A DNA stretch of 38,525 nt, taken from assembly GCA_024230295.1 (NCBI GenBank), contig JAAERN010000069.1, positions 97,752 through 136,276 of the forward strand, written 5' to 3'. This document shows positions 24,559 to 38,525 of this stretch, in pieces (within the stretch, counting starts at the first letter, position 1; every line of letters starts with the position of its first letter). Made by a program: the position numbers and the translations under genes. The notes below the pieces were generated by a model that was not told the origin of the DNA, ran no database searches, and saw only the letters and a list, made by a program, of their open reading frames with translations. Source of the DNA: Planctomycetota bacterium (GTDB lineage Bacteria > Planctomycetota > Phycisphaerae > Phycisphaerales > SM1A02).

Positions 24559-25455
24559 ATGTTTGGCGTCGCTTGCGATGCAGTTCTCGCTGTCGTCGTG
24601 ACGGGGCATCTCACAGAAGATCCCCCCGTGGGGGCATCCTTGCCCCTTCTGCCGACATCCATTGCTGCGGCGACCGCTGCTGTGGCGTTGGTTGTCTTTG
24701 GTGGTGTGTTGAACGATCTGCTGGATTCTCGAAGAGATGAGGTCATCGTTGGCAGTAGCTCGGTGCAAGCCACGGGGCCGGCCATCATTGTGCTTGTGGG
24801 ATCCATGTTGTTGGCGATGTTCGCCGCCTCAGTCTTGGGGAGTGACGCTGCATACGTGTTGCTCGTTCTGGCAACGCTGTTGCTCTTCCACACCGCTGTG
24901 TCGAGGTTCATCCCAGGGATTGGGCTCTTGGTGCCAGGTGCACTTCTGGCCGGAGTCATGCTCGTACCCGACTGGCGAATGCCGCTTCCGGGAGCCGTGT
25001 GGATGCTCATGACGATCATTGTGGCAACTTCGATCGGATCTCATGTGCTGGCAGGCAAACGGCCTCGCCTGTCGCTGCGAGCGGTGCCAGTCGTCATCGC
25101 TGGTTGGATACTGATGTCGGGCGTCATACTGACATTGCATGGGAAAGCCAACTGGTATCAATGGCCAACTGGTTTGACTCCGGGGCTCATGCTGTGGCCA
25201 CTTGGTGCGGTTGTGCTGCTCGGACTTCTTCTTCGTTGGAAGATTGCGACGGCTTCTTCATCGACTGCGGCTGCGGGCAAAGTTATTCGCTATGTCGCCT
25301 TATGGCAGCCCATATTTGGCGCGGCCTGGTGCCGAGCGATCGGTGCATGGGAGGCGGCAATCATCTTTCTGATTGTGGGCATTGCAGGGCTCCTCGTCAT
25401 CGGTGGATGCCGTGAGCTTGCGGGCGCTACGGGGAAAGATCCCGGTTGGCGGTAA
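24559..25455 (+). CDS. UbiA-like membrane protein, substrate unknown
   Basis: From the ATG at 24559 the product has 298 residues and about eight to nine membrane helices. The first loop has NDLLDSRRD (Asn 52, Asp 53, Asp 56, Asp 60), matching the NDxxDxxxD motif of UbiA prenyltransferases, which bind a prenyl diphosphate through magnesium. The second aspartate motif expected about 120 residues later is absent; the equivalent loop reads SHVLAGKRPRL. It is therefore a divergent or possibly non-catalytic family member. The frame is open far upstream through ribH and nusB. The ATG at 24559 is preferred because GGGGA lies six bases upstream and the first helix begins there. A GTG at 24430 would touch the divergent ribH start. 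Confidence 0.6.
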   Translation: MFGVACDAVLAVVVTGHLTEDPPVGASLPLLPTSIAAATAAVALVVFGGVLNDLLDSRRDEVIVGSSSVQATGPAIIVLVGSMLLAMFAASVLGSDAAYVLLVLATLLLFHTAVSRFIPGIGLLVPGALLAGVMLVPDWRMPLPGAVWMLMTIIVATSIGSHVLAGKRPRLSLRAVPVVIAGWILMSGVILTLHGKANWYQWPTGLTPGLMLWPLGAVVLLGLLLRWKIATASSSTAAAGKVIRYVALWQPIFGAAWCRAIGAWEAAIIFLIVGIAGLLVIGGCRELAGATGKDPGWR

Positions 25456-25467
25456 GCGGTCTGTTTG

Positions 25468-27186
25468 TTAGTCGGCCGCTGCTTGAAGACGATCTGGGGC
25501 AATACCAAGGTACGGCAGAACGCCGTCGATGAGATCTCGCACGACCGGGCCTGCGGTTGACCCACCGTACCAGCGACCAAGCGACCGATCGGGGTCGTCA
25601 ATGACGCACAGCACGACGAGCCGCGTGTCCTCCGCTGGTGCCCCTGCGATGAAACTTGAGACGTACCGATGCTCGTGGTAGCCGCCACCCTCAGCCTTGG
25701 GGAGCTGTGCAGTGCCGGACTTCCCGAACATGGAGTACTGGTCTGATTGCACTCGCTTCCCGGTCCCTTCGGTCATGACTCGCCGCATCGTCTCTTGGGC
25801 GAGGCGGGCTATTGCCGGCTCGAAGACCGGAACCGAGAAGGGGGCGCTTCGATCCTTCGCCGCATGAATCGTGGCGGCAGGGATTCGACCTTGAGATGCA
25901 AATGCCGAGAACGCTCGGGCCATCTGAATCGGTGTGACCGCGATCTCGTGTCCCATTGCAACGGACGTCTGCGTGTACTTGGACCACTTGGTCGTTGGTG
26001 TGACAATACCGACCGTCTCACCGGGGATTCCACACCCTGTGATCCGACCGAACCCGAGTTTTGTAACGGTCTCGCGGAGCAGGCTGTGCGGCATACGTTC
26101 GGCGACGATGGCCATCCCGCTGTTGAGTGAGTAGACCAGTACATTTCGCCACGAGGTGGGCCCGCGGTCATGAGCATCTCGAATTCGCCGTCCGAACGAT
26201 GTTCGGTGAGGGCCTTGGCTCGGTGTGGGGAGTGTCTCATCTGGTCGTGCCAGGCCAGCTTCGGTTGCGGCAGCCCATACAAAGGGCTTGAAGGTCGATC
26301 CGGGTTCATAGGGATCGCTGACACATCGATTTCGACGGAGAGGTGCATCTTGTGTTGTGTTGGTGCGGTCGATGTCGGCTACAGCCAGCAGTTCACCGGT
26401 GGAAGGATCCATGATGACAACTCGCCCTCCGGCAGCACCATATTCATCGACTGCAGACTCAAGCCGTTCTTCTGCCATACGTTGGATGACCAGATCGATG
26501 CTGAGCCGAACAGAATCTCCGTTTTCTCCTGGATCAAACCCATCGGGTGGTATCCACATTGTTCGCCGTCGAACATCTCGCACGCTGACAATGCGGCCCT
26601 TCGCTGACTCAAGCACTCCATGGAGTGAGTGTTCAAGGCCAGAGAGCCCCTGGTGTTCAAAACCCACGATGCCGACGAGTGACTCGGCCGTATCGGCAAG
26701 CGGATAATGCCTGATAGCCCGCCGTTCGAGCCCAATGCCAGGAATGTCTTCTGCTCTGAGCCGTTCGACTTGCCAATCTTCGAGAAGCCAGGGAATCGGA
26801 ACATATCGGCGGTGGAGCCGTCCGGAGAGCCGTCGTTGAATGTCGATTGGCGAGACTCCAATGGATCTCTGGAGTTGGAATCCAAGCAGGGTTGGATCCT
26901 TGACGAGCGACGGATCTATAAAGGCCCGCCACCCCAAGGAACTTGTGGCAAGAACGCGTCCACGTCGGTCAGTCAGATCACCGCGACGCACGAGCGGTGT
27001 GCGGATACTGAGATCTTCAGCGACAGCCTGAGCGAGTTCCGGGCTTGGCCGCTGCTGGAGTTGCCACACTCTGATCGGGATGCAGAGCAGGCCAGCGGTG
27101 GTCATGATGGCCAAGACCGTTGCCCAACTTGCGATACGCATGCACTGAGGATTGTGATTCGGTTCGCAGCCGTGGCGGTCAGTCAT
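25468..27186 (-). CDS. ftsI: peptidoglycan D,D-transpeptidase FtsI (class B penicillin-binding protein)
   Basis: The 572-residue protein has a short cytoplasmic tail, one membrane helix (about 20-40), and a PBP dimerisation domain that starts TDRRGRVLA. The transpeptidase domain has all three active-site motifs: STFK (297-300), SLN (353-355) and KSGT (489-492). It cross-links septal peptidoglycan and works with FtsW and the FtsQLB complex. There are no PASTA repeats. It is the last gene of a six-gene minus-strand run and overlaps the ftsL-like gene by 8 bp. Its presence shows that this lineage keeps a peptidoglycan division machine, unlike some planctomycetes that lack ftsI. It ends 12 bp from the convergent UbiA-like gene. 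Confidence 0.94.
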   Translation of the reverse strand: MTDRHGCEPNHNPQCMRIASWATVLAIMTTAGLLCIPIRVWQLQQRPSPELAQAVAEDLSIRTPLVRRGDLTDRRGRVLATSSLGWRAFIDPSLVKDPTLLGFQLQRSIGVSPIDIQRRLSGRLHRRYVPIPWLLEDWQVERLRAEDIPGIGLERRAIRHYPLADTAESLVGIVGFEHQGLSGLEHSLHGVLESAKGRIVSVRDVRRRTMWIPPDGFDPGENGDSVRLSIDLVIQRMAEERLESAVDEYGAAGGRVVIMDPSTGELLAVADIDRTNTTQDAPLRRNRCVSDPYEPGSTFKPFVWAAATEAGLARPDETLPTPSQGPHRTSFGRRIRDAHDRGPTSWRNVLVYSLNSGMAIVAERMPHSLLRETVTKLGFGRITGCGIPGETVGIVTPTTKWSKYTQTSVAMGHEIAVTPIQMARAFSAFASQGRIPAATIHAAKDRSAPFSVPVFEPAIARLAQETMRRVMTEGTGKRVQSDQYSMFGKSGTAQLPKAEGGGYHEHRYVSSFIAGAPAEDTRLVVLCVIDDPDRSLGRWYGGSTAGPVVRDLIDGVLPYLGIAPDRLQAAAD

Positions 27187-27445
27187 GTGCAGGGTCGATT
27201 GGCTGGCGTTCCGATATGGGCAACCCGGAGCGAAGCTCGACGTCCTCGGGAATACTCAAGGTGGCTGGTTGGATGATCACCGCGACCTCGGCTCTCGATC
27301 GCCACAAGGCTGCCTGATCAAGTGAAGTTTGCGCGTGCAGCATGCTCATGTCGTGAATCAAGGCAATACGCTGTTGTCTGAGCGATAGCAGGATCAGCCC
27401 GATCAGGCCGCAGGCCACCACAGCTGCAACAAGTCGTCGACTCAT
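27179..27445 (-). CDS. ftsL: FtsL-like small bitopic division protein
   Basis: The 88-residue protein has a few basic residues (MSRR), one membrane helix (LVAAVVACGLIGLILLSL), then a heptad-like segment (HDMSMLHAQTSLDQAALWRSR) that could form a coiled coil. FtsL is poorly conserved in sequence, so the call rests on size, topology and position between rsmH and ftsI, where ftsL normally lies. It overlaps both neighbours: ATGA with the LysM gene and 8 bp with ftsI. It would bridge FtsB and the FtsW-FtsI synthase. Confidence 0.65.
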   Translation of the reverse strand: MSRRLVAAVVACGLIGLILLSLRQQRIALIHDMSMLHAQTSLDQAALWRSRAEVAVIIQPATLSIPEDVELRSGLPISERQPIDPAHD

Positions 27446-28113
27446 GGCGACGACGCATGCTCTGGGGGGTGGTACCGAAGCCTGAGCCCGATCCGAAGGT
27501 CATCGGCACTTGAGAGTCGATCTCGATTGAGCTCAAGCAGTCGATCTGTGTGTCTTGCCGAGCCCATGAGTTGCTGAGCCAGTTCCGAGAGTGTGTCGCC
27601 GGGGCGAACCTCGTACTCGCTGGCTGATTGGGCGACTTGGATATTCGCATCAGCCGGCGGCAGGATGGCAGGGGCGGCGAGGCTTTGTGGCATCTCCGCT
27701 GTGGGTGGGATGATGAGCCGAAGGCCCGCCCGAAGCTTGTCTGGGTTTGGAAGGCCGTTGTGTACAGACAGATCTGCCGCGAGGGTTCGATCGCCGTAAT
27801 AGCGAAGGGCGATGCTCGAGAGTGTGTCCCCAGCACTGACGATGTGCACTGGATGCGAGAGCCCATGGGCGGTTGGCAGTGGCGTGCCTGCCACGGATTC
27901 GGTCGATTGCGCGACCTCGGTAGCAGGTGCAGGAACTGCGACAAGCGGTACATACTCGATCGCTCGCTGATCATTCGCGGCCAGAGGATCTCGGGCTGCA
28001 AGGCTTCCGGGGGCTCCTCGGGCCACCTCCGCCAAATGGTCCGAGACAAGAATGCCGACAACCAGCAGCAAGGCGAAGCCGATGATGATTGCGAATTTAT
28101 TCTCTTGAGTCAT
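27442..28113 (-). CDS. membrane-anchored protein with two LysM domains inside the division cluster
   Basis: The 223-residue protein begins MTQENKFAIIIGFALLL, a cytoplasmic tip and one membrane helix. A Pro/Ala-rich linker and two LysM peptidoglycan-binding domains follow: HIVSAGDTLSSIALRYYG and, about 75 residues later, YEVRPGDTLSELAQQLMG, each followed by a N-x-L and P-terminated LysM second half. It should sit in the inner membrane and hold peptidoglycan. It lies between rsmH and ftsL, a position not occupied by a LysM protein in the classical dcw cluster, and is coupled to ftsL by an ATGA overlap. It may therefore act in division. The ATG at 28113 is chosen; a GTG two codons upstream is possible. 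A 77-bp gap separates it from rsmH. Confidence 0.85.
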   Translation of the reverse strand: MTQENKFAIIIGFALLLVVGILVSDHLAEVARGAPGSLAARDPLAANDQRAIEYVPLVAVPAPATEVAQSTESVAGTPLPTAHGLSHPVHIVSAGDTLSSIALRYYGDRTLAADLSVHNGLPNPDKLRAGLRLIIPPTAEMPQSLAAPAILPPADANIQVAQSASEYEVRPGDTLSELAQQLMGSARHTDRLLELNRDRLSSADDLRIGLRLRYHPPEHASSP

Positions 28114-28190
28114 GTCCACGCATCCATGCGAATGGGCTCACTCTGCTCTCTGCGCCAACCGGGCTGTCCGCATCCTTGCGGGCATTCTGG

Positions 28191-29135
28191 TCAACTGATT
28201 GTCGATCGGATGACCCGGAGGCGTGCCGAGCGGCAGCGCGGGTTCCGATCCAGTTCCTCCTGTTTCGCCTGAACCGCACCAGCCGAAACGTCGATCGCAA
28301 GTCCCTCGCGGACGAGTGACGCGAAGCACTGCTTGACCGGCCGATCCTCGAGGCTGTGAAAGGCAATGATGCCGATCCTCGCGCCGGGCCGAAGCCAAGC
28401 TACGTCGCCGCTCCGCAATGCCCGCGTCAGTCGATCGAGCAGCGTCTGTAACGCCGCCAATTCATCGTTCACCGCGATCCGGATTGCTTGAAAGGTCCGG
28501 GTGGCGGGATGCTGGCGCGAGGTGCGGGCTCGGACGCCGTAGGCTTCGCGGACCAAATCCGCGAGCTGACCTGTCGTTTCGATCGGCCGTCTGCTGCGTT
28601 CAGATGCAATTTTTTGGGCGATCCTTGCCGCGAGCGGCTCTTCACCATGCTGCTTGATGATTTCAGCAAGGTCCCGCTCAGACATCGAGGCAACCAGAGA
28701 GGCTGCAGTCACAGACGAACTGGAGTCGAGCCGCATGTCCAAAGGGCCGTCCTCAATGAATGAGAATCCTCGGGTGGCGTCGTCGACCTGATTCGATGCG
28801 AAGCCAAGATCTGCGAGAACCATGTCGGCGGCGAGCTTCGATTGCTTCAGGAATTCGGGTGCACGGACGAAATTGCCATGGGACGTGTGATGTTCGACGC
28901 CCTCGGCTGTCAGCAGTTCTGCTGCTGCCTGGCGATTGTGTTCGTCCAGATCCAGTCCGACCACGGTGACTCCATTCGTGGAGGTCCCGATTGCTGCGGC
29001 ATGTCCGCCTCGACCAAGCGTGCAGTCCAGCAGTGTCTCTCCTGGGGCTGGGGCGAGAAGCGACACCACCTCCTCAATGAGAACCGGTTCGTGTCCGGAG
29101 GGATTCTTCTCGGGGTTTGTCGGGGGACCACTCAC
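28191..29135 (-). CDS. rsmH: 16S rRNA (cytosine1402-N4)-methyltransferase RsmH (MraW)
   Basis: The 314-residue enzyme shows the MraW motifs [22 protein letters not shown] (SAM-binding), [20 protein letters not shown], and the C-terminal [16 protein letters not shown]. It N4-methylates C1402 in the ribosomal decoding centre and is a standard early member of the division/cell-wall cluster. The start is the GTG at 29135 whose GTGA overlaps the sucB stop; the frame extends 12 codons further but into sucB. Translation is therefore coupled to sucB. mraZ is absent from the usual upstream position and is replaced by sucB. Confidence 0.95.
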
Positions 29136-30337
29136 ATGCCCAGCAGGAGCCGCTCGGGCGACTCGATGCACTCCTTGATATGGACGAGGAAGCCGACTGC
29201 TTCGGAACCATCGACGATTCGGTGATCGTAGGACACGGCCAGATACATCATCGGTCGGAGCACAATGGCGCCAGGAGCATCAGGATCCTCGACGGCCCTC
29301 TTGGAGATTCGGTGCAATCCGAGTATGCCAGACTGTGGAGGATTGAGGATCGGGGTCGACATCATCGAGCCATAGACGCCGCCGTTACTGATTGTGAATG
29401 TCCCGCCCGTTAGATCGTCCATGCCGAGCCGGCCACTTCGGGCTTCGCCAGCAAGTCGGCCGATTTCTGCTTCAATCTCAGCGAAACTGAGCCGGTCGGC
29501 GTTTCGAACGACTGGCACGACCAGCCCGCGGTCGGTTCCTACCGCGACCGAGAGGTCTACGTAGTCGTGGTACTCGACCTCATCGCCGTCGATCCACGCA
29601 TTGATGGCGGGAACGGCCTGAAGTGCAGAGACGACCGCCTTGGCGAAGAAACTCATGAACCCCAACTTGACGCCGAAGCGATCGTGGAAGTCATCCTTGT
29701 GGGCATTGCGGAGCCGGATGACTTCGGTCATATCCGCCTCGTTGAAGGTTGTCAGCATGGCAGCGGAATGCTGGGCGGCCACGAGCCGCTCGGCAATCCG
29801 GCGGCGGAGTGGTGACATGCGTTCTCGCCGGGTTCCACGATCAGCCGACTGGGTCAGTGGCGTGGCTGCGGGCTCGTGGCGAACGGCTGGCTCGGCCGCA
29901 GAGAGGACGTCGGACTTCATGACACGGCCCGCTGGACCACTTCCATGAAGATTGCCTAAATCGACCCCGTGGTCGTGGGCAATGCGGCGGGCCATGGGTG
30001 TCGCTCGGAGGCCCGGGTCATCGGCTGACGCAGCGTTCTCGGTTGCCACTTCGACACTGGTGGCGGGATCTGGATCGGGTATCGGGCTGGCAGGCTTCAC
30101 GCCAGCCTCATCAATCTGTCCAATGACAGCGCCGATGAGCAGGTCGGCGCCTTCCGGTTCAATGATGTGGACGAGCCCGCTGACCGGAGCAGGGAGTTCT
30201 TGGGTCACTTTGTCGGATTCGACTTCAACCAATGGTGCATCACGCTCGATCCACTGACCATCTTGGCACAACCACCGGCCGAGTCGAACCTCGGAGATCG
30301 ACTCTCCTAGGCTTGGGATGATGATGTCCATACTCAT
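29132..30337 (-). CDS. sucB: 2-oxoglutarate dehydrogenase E2 component (dihydrolipoamide succinyltransferase)
   Basis: The 401-residue protein has a lipoyl domain opening [14 protein letters not shown] with the lipoylated lysine in [13 protein letters not shown] (Lys 43). A subunit-binding domain reads [13 protein letters not shown]...[13 protein letters not shown]. The catalytic domain ends with the active-site [14 protein letters not shown]. The SLGES opening and ESDKV site are typical of succinyltransferases rather than acetyltransferases, and sucA is directly upstream with an ATGA overlap. It transfers the succinyl group to CoA in the TCA cycle. The stop overlaps the rsmH start by 4 bp. 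Confidence 0.95.
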
Positions 30338-33150
30338 TCGTGCTGCTCCTGGGGAAGCGTAGATTCAAAGTGAGTCGAGAGCGCGGCGTCCAGAACAGCC
30401 TGTTGTTCCTCTCGGTGAAGGCGGGCGGATCCTACGGCGGGAGAAGCGTTTGCTGGTCGACTGACAACATCAAGACGTATGTCGAACACATCGAAGAAGA
30501 CGTCGGCGATCCAAGTCCAGGCGCCGGCATTGCGAGGTTCCTCCTGAACCCACGTCCACTTTGTTGCGTTCGAATAGGTATGGAAGATCGCTCGGATATG
30601 TTCCTCTGGGAACGGATAAAGCTGTTCGATGCGGACAATGGCCGTATCGGTGACGTCCTCAGCTCGTGCCGTCATCAGATCCAGGGCAATCTTGCCACTG
30701 CACAAGATGACGTGACGAACATCCATAGCTTGGACCTTGGTGTCGTCGAGGACCTCGCGGAAATGGCCGGCAGCGAAGTCAGAGACGCTACTGGTAGCAC
30801 TTCGATGGCGAAGCAGGCTTTTGGGTGTCATGACGATGAGCGGCTTTCGGAAGTTGCGGAGCATCTGCCTGCGAAGAAGATGGAACATCTGCGCTGGAGT
30901 GGTCGGGACTGCAACTTCCATGTTGTCGTTTGCGCACAACTGAAGGAAGCGTTCGAGTCGAGCGGAGGAGTGTTCGGGACCCATTCCCTCATAGCCGTGA
31001 GGTAGAAGGCACACGAGCCCGCTGTGCCGTCTCCACTTTCGCTCTGCGGACGCGATGAATTGATCGAAGTAGACCTGCCCGACATTGGCAAAGTCACCGA
31101 ATTGTGCCTCCCACAGCACGAGCATGTTTGGATCGCCGAGTGAGTAGCCATACTCGAACCCGATACATGCTGATTCGGTAACGGGTGTGTTATGTACACA
31201 CATGCGAGACTGGCCGGTTTCAATGTGATCGAGAGGCGACCATGCTGCGCCGGTCGTTGCGTCAAAGAAGACAGCGTGGCGATGACTGAAAGTTCCTCGT
31301 TGACAGTCCTCGCCCGTCAATCTGATCGGGTGACCCTCCAGGAGCAGGCTGCCGTAGGCGAGCAATTCTCCCATGGCCCAGTCGAGAGGCCTGTCCTCGG
31401 CGACGGCCGTCGCCCGTTCGCTTAAGAGACGTTGCAGTTTTGGGTGCAGAGTGAAGTCGCTCGGTGTCCTGGCGAATGACTCGCAAATGCGGGTGAGTGT
31501 TGGAACTGGCACCGATGTGTCGATGGAATCTCCGCTCCACGACTTGGTGAACCCCGCCCAAGTGGAATGGTCATCGAATGCGGGCGGCGTCGGTCGAACG
31601 GGAGCCGAGCGGATGCGTTGCTGGGAGTCATCCATGACAGCGAGAAGTCGCTGCTCTGCTTGATCCGACTCTGATGAATCGATGACGCCGGACTTGGCAA
31701 GGTCGGCGGCATACTGCTCGACGATCGACTGTTGGGAACGAACTGCGTCGTACAGCATCGGGTTCGTGAATGCGGGCTCGTCGGTCTCGTTGTGTCCGTA
31801 TCGCCTCCATCCCCAAAGATCAATCACGATGTCGGTGCCGAAGGCCTCTCGCCAATCTACGGCGAGGCGAGTGGCGCGAATGCACTGGTCCGGGTCGAGT
31901 CCGTTGACATGCAGTATCGGAATGTCATGTCCCTTGAGAACATCAGTGCAGTATGCCCCGGAGAAGGCTTCATCATGTTCTGCCGTGAATCCAACCTGAT
32001 TGTTGATGATGATGTGGATCGAGCCGCCTACGTCGTAGGGTTCAAGGCCCGACATATTTGCCAGTTCTTGCACGACACCCTGCCCGGCAATTGCCGCATC
32101 GCCATGCAGGAGCACGGGAAGGCATCTTTGTCTGGTCGTGTCACCACGAAGCCGCTGCTTGGCGCGCACACGGCCTAGCACGACTGGATGTCCCCACTCC
32201 AAATGCGACGGATTCGATGCCATGGTGAGATGCATCGGACGCCCACTCGTTGTGGTGATATCGGTGCTGTAGCCTCGGTGATATTTGACGTCGCCGCCAC
32301 TCTCGATGAAGTCCTCGGTCCAAGCCTCTTCGAACTCGGTGAATAGTTGGTCATACGACTTCTCGAGAATGTTGACCAGGACATTGACGCGTCCCCGGTG
32401 GGCCATGCCAAATGCAACTTCCTCGACGTTGTGATTGGCGGCCCCCTCGAGCAGTTCTGTCAACATGGGAATGAGTGTTTCGCCGCCCTCAAGACTGAAC
32501 CATTTGCTTCCCACGTAGCGACGCATAAGAAACCGTTCGAGCCCGGTAGCCCGCTGGAGGTCCAGGAGAATTCTGCGCCGAGTCTCGTCCGATAGTGGTG
32601 CATGGGCATTCTGTGACTCGATTCTCTCGTGCCACCAGGAACGCTTTTTGTCGCAGCGGAGGTGCTCACTTTCGATGCCCATGGTGCCGCACCAGCTGAT
32701 CTTGAGATGCGAAAGAATGTCACGCAGCATCGAAGGATTCGGCAGTGGGAGAGGGCCAGGGTTGAACTCAGAGTTCAGGTCCTGGTCCGTCAATCCGAAC
32801 TGGTCAATCTCGATGGCTGTCGTATCAAGTTTGCGTCGCTTGAGCGGGTCGATATCCGCCGCGAGATTTCCCCACGTGCGGTAGGCCGCCAACAATCTCC
32901 AGACGGATGCTTCCCCATTATTTTTTGTGTGGTGTGGAGTTGTTGAAGCGAGCGCAAACCCCTCGAAGAAGTGCCGCCACGACTCGGGAACGGTCTGAGG
33001 GTCTTCCTGCCACCTTGTGTGCAGGGCGTCGATCCACGGTGCATTCCAACCGTTGATTCCGACATCTGCGGATGCGAGCGCAGCCACCGGCGGGGCCGGT
33101 GTCTGGTGAGGCGAGCATTGCTGTTGCGGGTCCATGGTGGAGTCGTCCAT
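30334..33150 (-). CDS. sucA: 2-oxoglutarate dehydrogenase E1 component
   Basis: The 938-residue protein is a full-length SucA. The N-terminal segment ([19 protein letters not shown]...WRHFFEGF) resembles the E2-binding region. The thiamine diphosphate core includes [30 protein letters not shown] and [10 protein letters not shown]. The C-terminal transketolase-like domain includes [16 protein letters not shown] and [14 protein letters not shown]. It decarboxylates 2-oxoglutarate and hands succinyl to SucB. It opens the six-gene minus-strand run and overlaps sucB by 4 bp (ATGA). The 127 bp upstream, after priA, must hold the promoter; candidates there (such as TACAAT at 33209-33214 on the minus strand) lack a good -35. 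Confidence 0.96.
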
Positions 33151-33277: not shown

Positions 33278-35593
33278 CTACAGCAGTGAGATGGGGTCGA
33301 CATCGACGACCAGCGACGGATCGTTCAAGGCCATCTCGCGGCGAGCGTGGTGGAGCCACAGTTGCAGAATGTCTGCGGTCGGGGCTGCTAGCAGAACCTC
33401 TCGCCTGTGGCGGCCGCGAATGCGGGCCAATGGGCATGGCATCGGGCCAATGACGCTTCCACCTTCAGGTGCCAGGGCATGAAACGTCTTGGCCGTATCG
33501 TCAATAGTCCGCTCGCACGCGGTGAGATCGGCGTCGCGGGTCACGATGCGCGCCATGCGGGTAATTGGTGGCAGCGCAGCGTCCTGCCGCTGGGCACGCT
33601 CATACTCCAGAAACTCCTCAATGCGCCCGTCGCATGCCATCGTGATTGAAGCGGCCTCTGGGTCAAGCGTCTGGACGATCGCTGTTCCCGTCGCGTCGCT
33701 CCGGCCACAACGGCCAGTGACTTGAGCAACCAACTGCATCGTTCGTTCGGCAGCTCGAAAGTCCGGCATGTGAAGTGCAGTGTCGGCGTCAATGACGCCC
33801 ACCAGTCGAACACCAGGAACATCGAGCCCTTTGGCGATCATCTGAGTACCGAGGAGTACTCGGATTTCACCGCGTTGAAAGGCTCCCAAAACCGTGTGGA
33901 ATTGATCGGCCCGGTTCATGGAGTCCGAGTCCATTCGATACAGCGTCTTTCCAACTATTAGGTCGGGTCGAAGGGCGACCACTTCCTCTTCGATTCGTTG
34001 CGTACCCGAACCGAGTCGGACAGGTTTGCCGCCACAGTCAGGGCAACTGCGAGGAAGGCGTACTTCACGCTGGCAGTGGTGGCATCGGAGGAATCCGCCT
34101 GTTGGGAGATCGCCCGCCCGGTGGTACACCATCGTGACGTCGCAGTGTTCGCACTCGAGAACCCAGCCGCAAGCGCGGCTACTGCACGCGATGTGGGTTG
34201 CCCATCCTCGTCGATTGAGCAGAAGGAGGGCCTGATGGCCTGCTTCGAGGGTTCGTGACAGTGCTGCGCGGAGTGTTGGCCCGAGGGCGCCGCAGTACTT
34301 TGCGTCGCGCCGTCGCTCTTCGGTCATGTTGACGATTCGTGTGCGTGGTGTACTCAGACCGGGGGCGCGTTCAGGGAGTCGGTGCAAGGTCCAGTCACTT
34401 CGCGTGTTCGCATTCTGCCATGTCTCGAGCGAGGGTGTTGCGCTGCAAAGCAGGATGGGACATTGGGCGATGTGCGCACGCTGGATTGCGACATCTCTGC
34501 CGTGATATCTGGGGGTCGAGTCCTGCTTGAAGGACGCATCATGCTCTTCGTCGACAACGACAAGTCCGAGCCGATCTGGAGGAATCGGAGCAAACACACC
34601 GCTTCGGGCTCCGAGAACAATTCTGGTTTCGCCACGGCGGATTGAGTCCCAATACGCGTGCCTGGTTGCGGGTGGAAGGGCCGAATGAATGAGTCCGACG
34701 GACTCGTCAGGGAATCGGCTCGCAAGCCTCGTTGCAGTTTGGGGCGTTAGCGCGATTTCCGGTACGAGTATGAGTGCGTGTTGATCCATTTCAAGGAGAA
34801 GCTCGATCAGCCGCAAGTAGACTTCGGTCTTGCCACTCCCCGTGACGCCGCGTAGCACATGGGATGAGAAGCCGCGGCCCATGCACTCAGCTACGGCGTC
34901 GATGATTTTCTGTTGCGTTTCGGTCGGTGTTGGTGCCGGAGAACTGTCTAGATGGCGAGGCGACCATCGCGACTCGATGACGGTCCGTCGGTGTTCTTCA
35001 AGAAGACCACGTTCAACCAGCGCCGTAATAGGTCCGAATGTTGCGACGGAAGCGCGGTCCCGCAACTGGGTGCGCTCAATGGGCAGATCCTCGGCGGGAA
35101 TTGCGAGGATTGTGTCAAGGATCTTGCGCTGCGCGGGGCCGAGTCGGCCCTCTTCTGCGGCCGCCGCTGCCGGGGAATAGAACCGCCGTTGAATGCGCCC
35201 CGTCTGCCGACGCACAGGGGCAGGCATCATGCTGGAGAGCGTTGGCCCGAGCGGGGCGAGGTAATAGCGTGCCATCCACTGGCCAAGTTCCAGAAGGTCT
35301 GGAGAAAGTTGAGGGCGATCATGTCGAGCTAGAACGTGTTTCACGCTACCGCTGCGTGTGGGGGCCGCGTCGGAGGGGCTGCACATGACCCATCCCGCAG
35401 TGCGGGTATTCCCTCGGCCAAGAGGCACGATGACGGCCTCGCCAGGTTCAAGATCGGCGAGCTCTGGGGGGACTGCGTACGACAGCCCTGTTCCAGCCTG
35501 GTCGATGGGACGGTCCACAGCAACGCGGATCCAGCCAGCAATTGGTTCGGGGAAGAGATCCTGCACGCCAGCATTGTCTACACTTCCGGGCAT
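33278..35593 (-). CDS. priA: primosomal protein N' (PriA helicase)
   Basis: The 771-residue protein has an N-terminal 3'-DNA-binding domain (WIRVAVDRPIDQAGTGLSYA). The superfamily 2 helicase core has Walker A GVTGSGKT (249-256), DEEH (348-351) and LLNRRGW. The zinc-binding insertion holds paired cysteines (CGWVLECEHCD, LRCHHCQ, CPDCGG). The C-terminal helicase lobe carries GTQMIAKGLDVPGV. PriA restarts stalled replication forks by loading the primosome. The ATG at 35591-35593 lies in a CATG shared with the divergent carA start. The GTG at 35566 is an in-frame alternative, and the conserved region begins only after it, so the exact start is uncertain. Confidence 0.95.
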   Translation of the reverse strand: MPGSVDNAGVQDLFPEPIAGWIRVAVDRPIDQAGTGLSYAVPPELADLEPGEAVIVPLGRGNTRTAGWVMCSPSDAAPTRSGSVKHVLARHDRPQLSPDLLELGQWMARYYLAPLGPTLSSMMPAPVRRQTGRIQRRFYSPAAAAAEEGRLGPAQRKILDTILAIPAEDLPIERTQLRDRASVATFGPITALVERGLLEEHRRTVIESRWSPRHLDSSPAPTPTETQQKIIDAVAECMGRGFSSHVLRGVTGSGKTEVYLRLIELLLEMDQHALILVPEIALTPQTATRLASRFPDESVGLIHSALPPATRHAYWDSIRRGETRIVLGARSGVFAPIPPDRLGLVVVDEEHDASFKQDSTPRYHGRDVAIQRAHIAQCPILLCSATPSLETWQNANTRSDWTLHRLPERAPGLSTPRTRIVNMTEERRRDAKYCGALGPTLRAALSRTLEAGHQALLLLNRRGWATHIACSSRACGWVLECEHCDVTMVYHRAGDLPTGGFLRCHHCQREVRLPRSCPDCGGKPVRLGSGTQRIEEEVVALRPDLIVGKTLYRMDSDSMNRADQFHTVLGAFQRGEIRVLLGTQMIAKGLDVPGVRLVGVIDADTALHMPDFRAAERTMQLVAQVTGRCGRSDATGTAIVQTLDPEAASITMACDGRIEEFLEYERAQRQDAALPPITRMARIVTRDADLTACERTIDDTAKTFHALAPEGGSVIGPMPCPLARIRGRHRREVLLAAPTADILQLWLHHARREMALNDPSLVVDVDPISLL

Positions 35594-36896: not shown

Positions 36897-38525
<1,629 letters not shown>

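Follow-up and report, generated by a model that had tools for sequence, protein, structure and literature searches.

The genes sucAB run into a division-gene block in a family of Planctomycetota: a family-wide, unusual gene order with a changing upstream neighbour

The gene row described here lies in a stretch of 38,525 nucleotides (the window), positions 97,752 to 136,276 of contig JAAERN010000069.1 (C69), which belongs to the 2.7 Mb draft genome GCA_024230295.1 of a Planctomycetota bacterium of the family SM1A02 (Phycisphaerae, Phycisphaerales). On its minus strand, the window sequence reads priA-sucA-sucB-rsmH-lysM-ftsL-ftsI, so that the tricarboxylic acid (TCA) cycle genes sucA and sucB lead directly into genes of the division and cell wall (dcw) cluster. 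The gene identities, which were checked by Pfam and NCBIfam profile searches, are as follows, in the order of transcription, together with the open reading frame (ORF) that faces the row:

33278..35593, minus strand: priA, likely the first gene of the row (TIGR00595, 511 bits, cut-off 230)
30334..33150, minus strand: sucA, 2-oxoglutarate dehydrogenase E1 (PRK09404, 1126 bits, cut-off 764)
29132..30337, minus strand: sucB, dihydrolipoyllysine succinyltransferase E2 (PRK05704, 501 bits, cut-off 449)
29132..29135, minus strand: GTGA, the sucB stop overlapping the GTG start of rsmH (from the sequence)
28191..29135, minus strand: rsmH (mraW), 16S rRNA m4C1402 methyltransferase (TIGR00006, 263 bits, cut-off 154)
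27442..28113, minus strand: lysM, protein with two LysM repeats (PF01476, 61 bits, 2 stretches) and, by eye, an N-terminal membrane segment
27179..27445, minus strand: FtsL-like small membrane protein of 88 amino acids, named by position and form only, without a family match
25468..27186, minus strand: ftsI-type penicillin-binding protein (PBP) of class B (PF00905 Transpeptidase, 195 bits; PF03717 PBP_dimer, 34 bits)
24559..25455, plus strand: convergent ORF of 298 amino acids, probable membrane protein (frame open, no Pfam match)

A sequence-only reading of this DNA had described six minus-strand genes, sucA to ftsI, joined by overlaps of 4 to 8 bp with a single gap of 77 bp, and a sucB stop codon overlapping the rsmH start; both descriptions are borne out by the sequence. 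Overlaps of 4 bp join sucA to sucB (ATGA), sucB to rsmH (GTGA, with the rsmH start at 29135 and the longest ORF running from 29171) and lysM to the ftsL-like gene (ATGA), and an 8-bp overlap, ATGACTGA, joins the latter to ftsI. The gap lies between rsmH and lysM; it measures 77 bp if lysM starts with the ATG at 28113, and 71 bp if it starts with a GTG at 28119. The run also takes in priA, a gene of the same strand that precedes sucA by 127 bp, and it stops at ftsI because the plus-strand ORF converges on that gene, 12 bp away. At 24 of 24 loci of the family, the gene after a relative of this ORF is ribH.

For the ftsI-type protein, none of the NCBIfam PBP models listed scored as high as its cut-off. 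No FtsL model was found for 32 relatives of the 88-amino-acid ORF in a scan to E=1, in which 25 of the 27 matching families were inspected. ORFs picked by their position between lysM and ftsI at 77 loci (69 of them in the family) mostly share the form of the window's ORF, which by eye consists of an N-terminal membrane segment with a helix after it; two of them (L111 and L130) look like picks in the wrong frame.

That a single message crosses the sucB/rsmH boundary, as the earlier reading had proposed, is likely, since the conserved HEPVL codons of rsmH begin only 38 nt past the end of sucB, and promoter and terminator matches do not exceed chance. A scan restricted to the sigma-70 consensus gave 3 promoter-like matches in the window, against 2.6 expected by chance, which is weak evidence either way, and the 6 terminator-like sites, against 7.1 expected, are uninformative. 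Co-transcription of sucB and rsmH is plausible.

The linkage of sucA and rsmH is widespread in the family. Among its 151 genomes, RsmH was found in 142 and SucA in 136, and both genes share a contig in 96, in 95 of which they lie within about 11 kb of each other. In 64 of these same-contig pairs sucA is upstream of rsmH on the same strand (60 within 3.5 kb, 4 at 3.5-5 kb), and in the other 32 the two genes are oppositely oriented (31 within 11 kb, one 1.97 Mb apart); the remaining genomes have them on different contigs (34) or lack one or both matches (21). Outside the family, SucA was found in 64 genomes of the class, 53 of which are comparable, the other 11 having no rsmH row to compare. Five of the 53 carry both genes on one contig, at distances of 11 kb, 253 kb, 330 kb, 451 kb and 1.1 Mb, so that a single one has them within 20 kb. 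In a scan of a genome collection, which may have excluded records closely akin to the window's genome, rsmH was near sucB in 2 of the best 80 SucB loci, both from Planctomycetota and one very likely G202. The top-scoring named locus among the matches listed is contig JABABS010000088.1 of a Phycisphaerales metagenome-assembled genome (L165), with the order carA<, priA, sucA, sucB, rsmH, lysM, ftsI.

Close relatives share the arrangement, as a comparison proposed with the sequence-only reading bears out: all 5 further congeners that were read with both genes have a sucB-rsmH gap of at most 22 bp, and sucB also appears to have preceded rsmH in the family ancestor (see below). Within the genus, the spacing ranges from a 4-bp overlap (the window, G208 and G257) to 22 bp, which is ordinary for an operon. 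Since congeners and other genera share the join, an assembly artefact was ruled out as its cause. Chance was ruled out by the linkage within the family set against its rarity outside, and the linkage is therefore a family trait. The gene order is true, family-wide and unusual. No report of a sucAB-dcw arrangement was found in the titles and abstract openings of the literature searched, or in excerpts of PMC5147048, PMC6952346 and PMC3265435.

What lies immediately upstream of rsmH was read in 78 family genomes and the window, which together represent 44 genera. In 25 of the 79 loci, from 12 genera, sucB ends within 200 bp of rsmH; in 5 more it stands at 300-400 bp and in 2 at about 1 kb. A gene for an S49 (SppA-like) peptidase directly precedes rsmH in 15/79 loci, on the opposite strand in 14 of them, and in 12 of those 14 loci (9 genera) this opposite-strand gene sits between sucB and rsmH. 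A family-4 glycosyltransferase gene is found within 250 bp upstream of rsmH in 21/79 loci, and the neighbour is priA in 2/79, another gene in 7/79 and a contig edge in 2/79. Among the 21 glycosyltransferase loci, sucB converges on the rsmH-ftsI block from the far side in 17, and no sucB is in range in the other 4. A gene for a Wzc-type protein, named from Pfam AAA_31 and sequence reading, also lies upstream in 20 of the 21, and an epimerase-like gene, named from sequence reading, in 14. The same glycosyltransferase gene is convergent after ftsI in 9 of the 32 sucB-type loci, and these positions, with the block turned and sucB on its far side, are what an in-place inversion of the rsmH-ftsI block would give.

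The junctions of the row differ in how well they are kept. The functional pair sucA-sucB is intact in 57/57 loci, priA-sucA in 47/49 and the divergent pair carA/priA in 30/30; rsmH-lysM is kept in 79/79, nusB-ftsY in 24/24 and ftsY-lptD in 21/21. A LysM gene also comes after rsmH in 11 of 12 rsmH loci from the order's other families. In contrast, the sucB|rsmH junction is kept in 32/62 family loci (25 of these within 300 bp) and the junction between ftsI and the next gene in 23/65, so that the weak junctions mark where the division block begins and where it ends. The lysM-ftsI pair scored 51/74 because ftsL hits fall between the two genes, and the denominators differ because contigs end and the loci are centred on rsmH. 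If sucB and rsmH were a functional pair, their junction would be expected to be at least as stable as that of neighbours which share no message, such as carA and priA.

Two sister genomes of the window's genus (G266 and G275, loci L067 and L068) lack sucB at the rsmH locus, to which the search for this gene was limited, and SucA was not found in them by hidden Markov model or protein search, the genomes being 84 and 87 percent complete. In both, priA ends 13 bp before the ATG of rsmH, running straight into it, and the row is otherwise intact. Since the two genomes are sister tips on short branches, the loss of sucA was probably one event. The alpha subunit of a 2-oxoacid:acceptor oxidoreductase is present in 10/10 genomes searched (fragmented and under the cut-off in G266), so that this enzyme may offer another route.

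To place these states in time, a tree of four proteins was used, with two of the order's other families as outgroup, and the upstream state of rsmH was traced by parsimony over 69 tips from the 79 family loci, leaving out the 9 loci with another gene or a contig edge and one locus that has no tip (L077). The states require 6 changes, compared with a mean of 31 and a minimum of 25 in 500 shuffles, and the root state is sucB upstream of rsmH. We infer from this root state and the few changes that the arrangement goes back to early in the family's history and was later modified on several occasions.

The separation of rsmH from mraZ reaches beyond the family. Among the matches listed, 78 of 94 genomes of the class outside the order have mraZ no more than 3 kb from rsmH, in agreement with the earlier statement that a classical dcw cluster has mraZ where sucB stands here; the figures are 0/8 for genomes of the order's other families and 0/5 for this family. 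In 99 family genomes with both genes listed, they share a contig in 4, at 144 kb or more. The window's genome is not missing mraZ, which is found on contig C123, with rsmH on C69:

L162:9309-9788, contig C123 of the window's genome: orphan mraZ, which passes the Pfam cut-off and scores 78 bits against 98 in TIGR00242

The orphan gene lies about 2.7 kb from dapF. Since rsmH without a nearby mraZ also occurs in the order's other families, the two genes appear to have been separated earlier than sucAB arrived, or independently of it.

Compared with the classical dcw cluster (mraZ-mraW/rsmH-ftsL-ftsI-murE-murF-mraY-...), rsmH and ftsI keep their order and strand, with the ftsL-like gene, identified by position and form only, between them. 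Unlike in the classical cluster, mraZ is on another contig and not directly upstream of rsmH, a LysM gene separates rsmH from the ftsL-like gene, the block ends at ftsI and priA-sucAB stand upstream; murE, murF and mraY are together on contig C75, not after ftsI. Nor was the ftsZ of the distal end detected, FtsZ (PF00091) being found in 0/12 genomes searched, the window's own included. Fragmentation of the cluster, loss of dcw genes and the absence of FtsZ are reported for Planctomycetota in the excerpted text of PMC5147048. The present fragment resembles the broken-up clusters of Planctomycetota and the Planctomycetes-Verrucomicrobia-Chlamydiae (PVC) group in its fragmentation and in that FtsZ was not found, and differs from those seen in the literature searched in standing behind sucAB, with flips and a changing upstream neighbour.

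These observations are probably best explained by a rearrangement that joined a dcw fragment already parted from mraZ behind priA-sucA-sucB, where it would be read through from upstream, and no conserved link between metabolism and division is needed. The row would then be a fusion of a housekeeping run, priA-sucA-sucB, with a fragment of the broken-up dcw cluster, rsmH-lysM-ftsL-ftsI. Throughout the order, rsmH stands apart from mraZ, and in the ancestor of the family, as comparison and parsimony suggest, the fragment would have come to sit downstream of sucB. In the window's genome sucB and rsmH appear to leave no space between them for a promoter, the fragment is probably transcribed by read-through from priA/sucA, and translation of rsmH may be coupled to the end of sucB at the GTGA. 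The fragment would behave as a cassette, rearranged at its outer edges (sucB|rsmH and ftsI|next) with rsmH-lysM-ftsL-ftsI intact, and is probably read from whichever operon lies upstream. In the family, it is preceded by sucB, by the S49 peptidase gene, which in most cases has the opposite orientation, by what is probably a polysaccharide operon with the family-4 glycosyltransferase gene at its end, or by priA.

Several points weigh against this rearrangement reading. The state reconstructed for the family ancestor already has sucB upstream, and the tight sucB-rsmH junction persists in 12 genera, which could be read as selection. The tree was built from the same proteins that make up the locus; the node placing g143 has a support of 0.21, which makes the count of inversions uncertain. 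G107, which carries the label of another family (f5), is placed inside the window's family with weak support. The loci were centred on rsmH, and genomes with the linkage were drawn before others; most genera contributed two loci (g2 and g135 three each, and g1 eight, the window included). Neighbouring genes were identified with tblastn and simple ORF criteria.

The sequence-only reading had offered another meaning, in which a message common to sucAB and the division genes makes the output of division proteins track the TCA cycle or the energy state. The stop/start overlap placed 38 nt before the conserved RsmH motif, the proximity of sucB and rsmH in 12 genera and the probably ancestral arrangement agree with it, as does a precedent in Escherichia coli, where PdhR connects pyruvate to the dcw cluster and so provides a metabolic input to its transcription (excerpts of PMC3265435). 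The likeness is that of a central-carbon signal bearing on dcw transcription; PdhR, however, is a trans-acting regulator that binds upstream of mraZ, and here the genes are adjacent (PMC3265435, in part). Relatives nevertheless break, invert or lose the sucB|rsmH junction, so that the coupling is not supported by how they treat it: at 32/62 against 57/57 for sucA-sucB it is one of the two weakest junctions compared and far under most surrounding ones, an opposite-strand peptidase gene intervenes in 12 loci of 9 genera, the block is reversed against sucB in 17 loci, and two sister congeners without detectable SucA keep the rest of the row. Deletions of ftsI and ftsW were also obtained in Planctopirus limnophila, that of ftsI without an effect on growth rate (PMC6952346, in part). 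Since FtsZ was found in none of the 12 genomes, the 'septal' part of the proposed flux-to-septum link should not be assumed either. We regard this coupling as very unlikely, and the arrangement can be explained without any conserved regulation that would tie 2-oxoglutarate dehydrogenase to division. The case is a caution against inferring function from one overlapping junction.

Alternatively, the division block may be served by a promoter of its own within the sucB coding sequence, in which case its position next to sucB would be plain synteny with no shared regulation. A separate promoter is nearly required at the loci where 300-400 bp or an opposite-strand gene precedes rsmH, the block stays together when moved, and the restriction of the scan to sigma-70 leaves this reading some room; the overlap of sucB with rsmH in the window speaks against it, and the promoter-like matches, being near chance, tell little either way. 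We consider this reading unlikely. The series of neighbours also allows a third possibility, which seems quite unlikely, that after the split from mraZ the cassette was rewired time and again, its new driver being an operon of the TCA cycle, of polysaccharide export or of replication restart, tying the output of wall synthesis to lineage-specific physiology and leaving MraZ to control itself and other targets. If this rewiring were true, the family would amount to a set of natural experiments in which a division operon exchanged its promoter.

For the timing of division genes in Planctomycetota without FtsZ, the family offers the same four-gene block behind different upstream genes and away from mraZ, and thus allows one to ask which input, if any, the rsmH-ftsI block requires.

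Traces of MraZ control were sought with the pattern TGGG-N6-TGGG, which we take to be the MraZ-box consensus and for which a literature search found no source paper. It occurs 0 times in the window, where 1.66 are expected by chance, and once upstream of the orphan mraZ, whose locus has 2 occurrences against 0.81 expected (43 of 200 shuffles reach at least this number). A triple GTGG repeat with a 10-bp period, matching 11 of 12 letters, was observed upstream of the orphan mraZ and of mraZ in the congener G181 (L164). Upstream of rsmH, it is found at 11/12 letters in 0 of 75 family loci, and at 10/12 letters in 3 of them, with 7 on the reverse strand. In the positive control the search performed poorly, with 4/29 class loci against 1/29 on the reverse strand at 11/12 letters, and 4/30 against 3/30 for the simpler TGGG pattern. 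For this reason, a MraZ-box at rsmH, which is absent from the window, was discarded and the repeat is kept as a hint only.

Two further features of the material are of minor interest. In eight genomes (G204, G235, G248, G259, G268, G276, G284 and G295), the RsmH profile matches end near positions 225-228 of 309, and for seven of them a second RsmH piece is among the matches listed; the break and the second piece suggest an insertion in the enzyme in the genera g141 and g152. At the end of the window, the ORF 36897-38525, which is still open there, contains a long glycine-rich tract.

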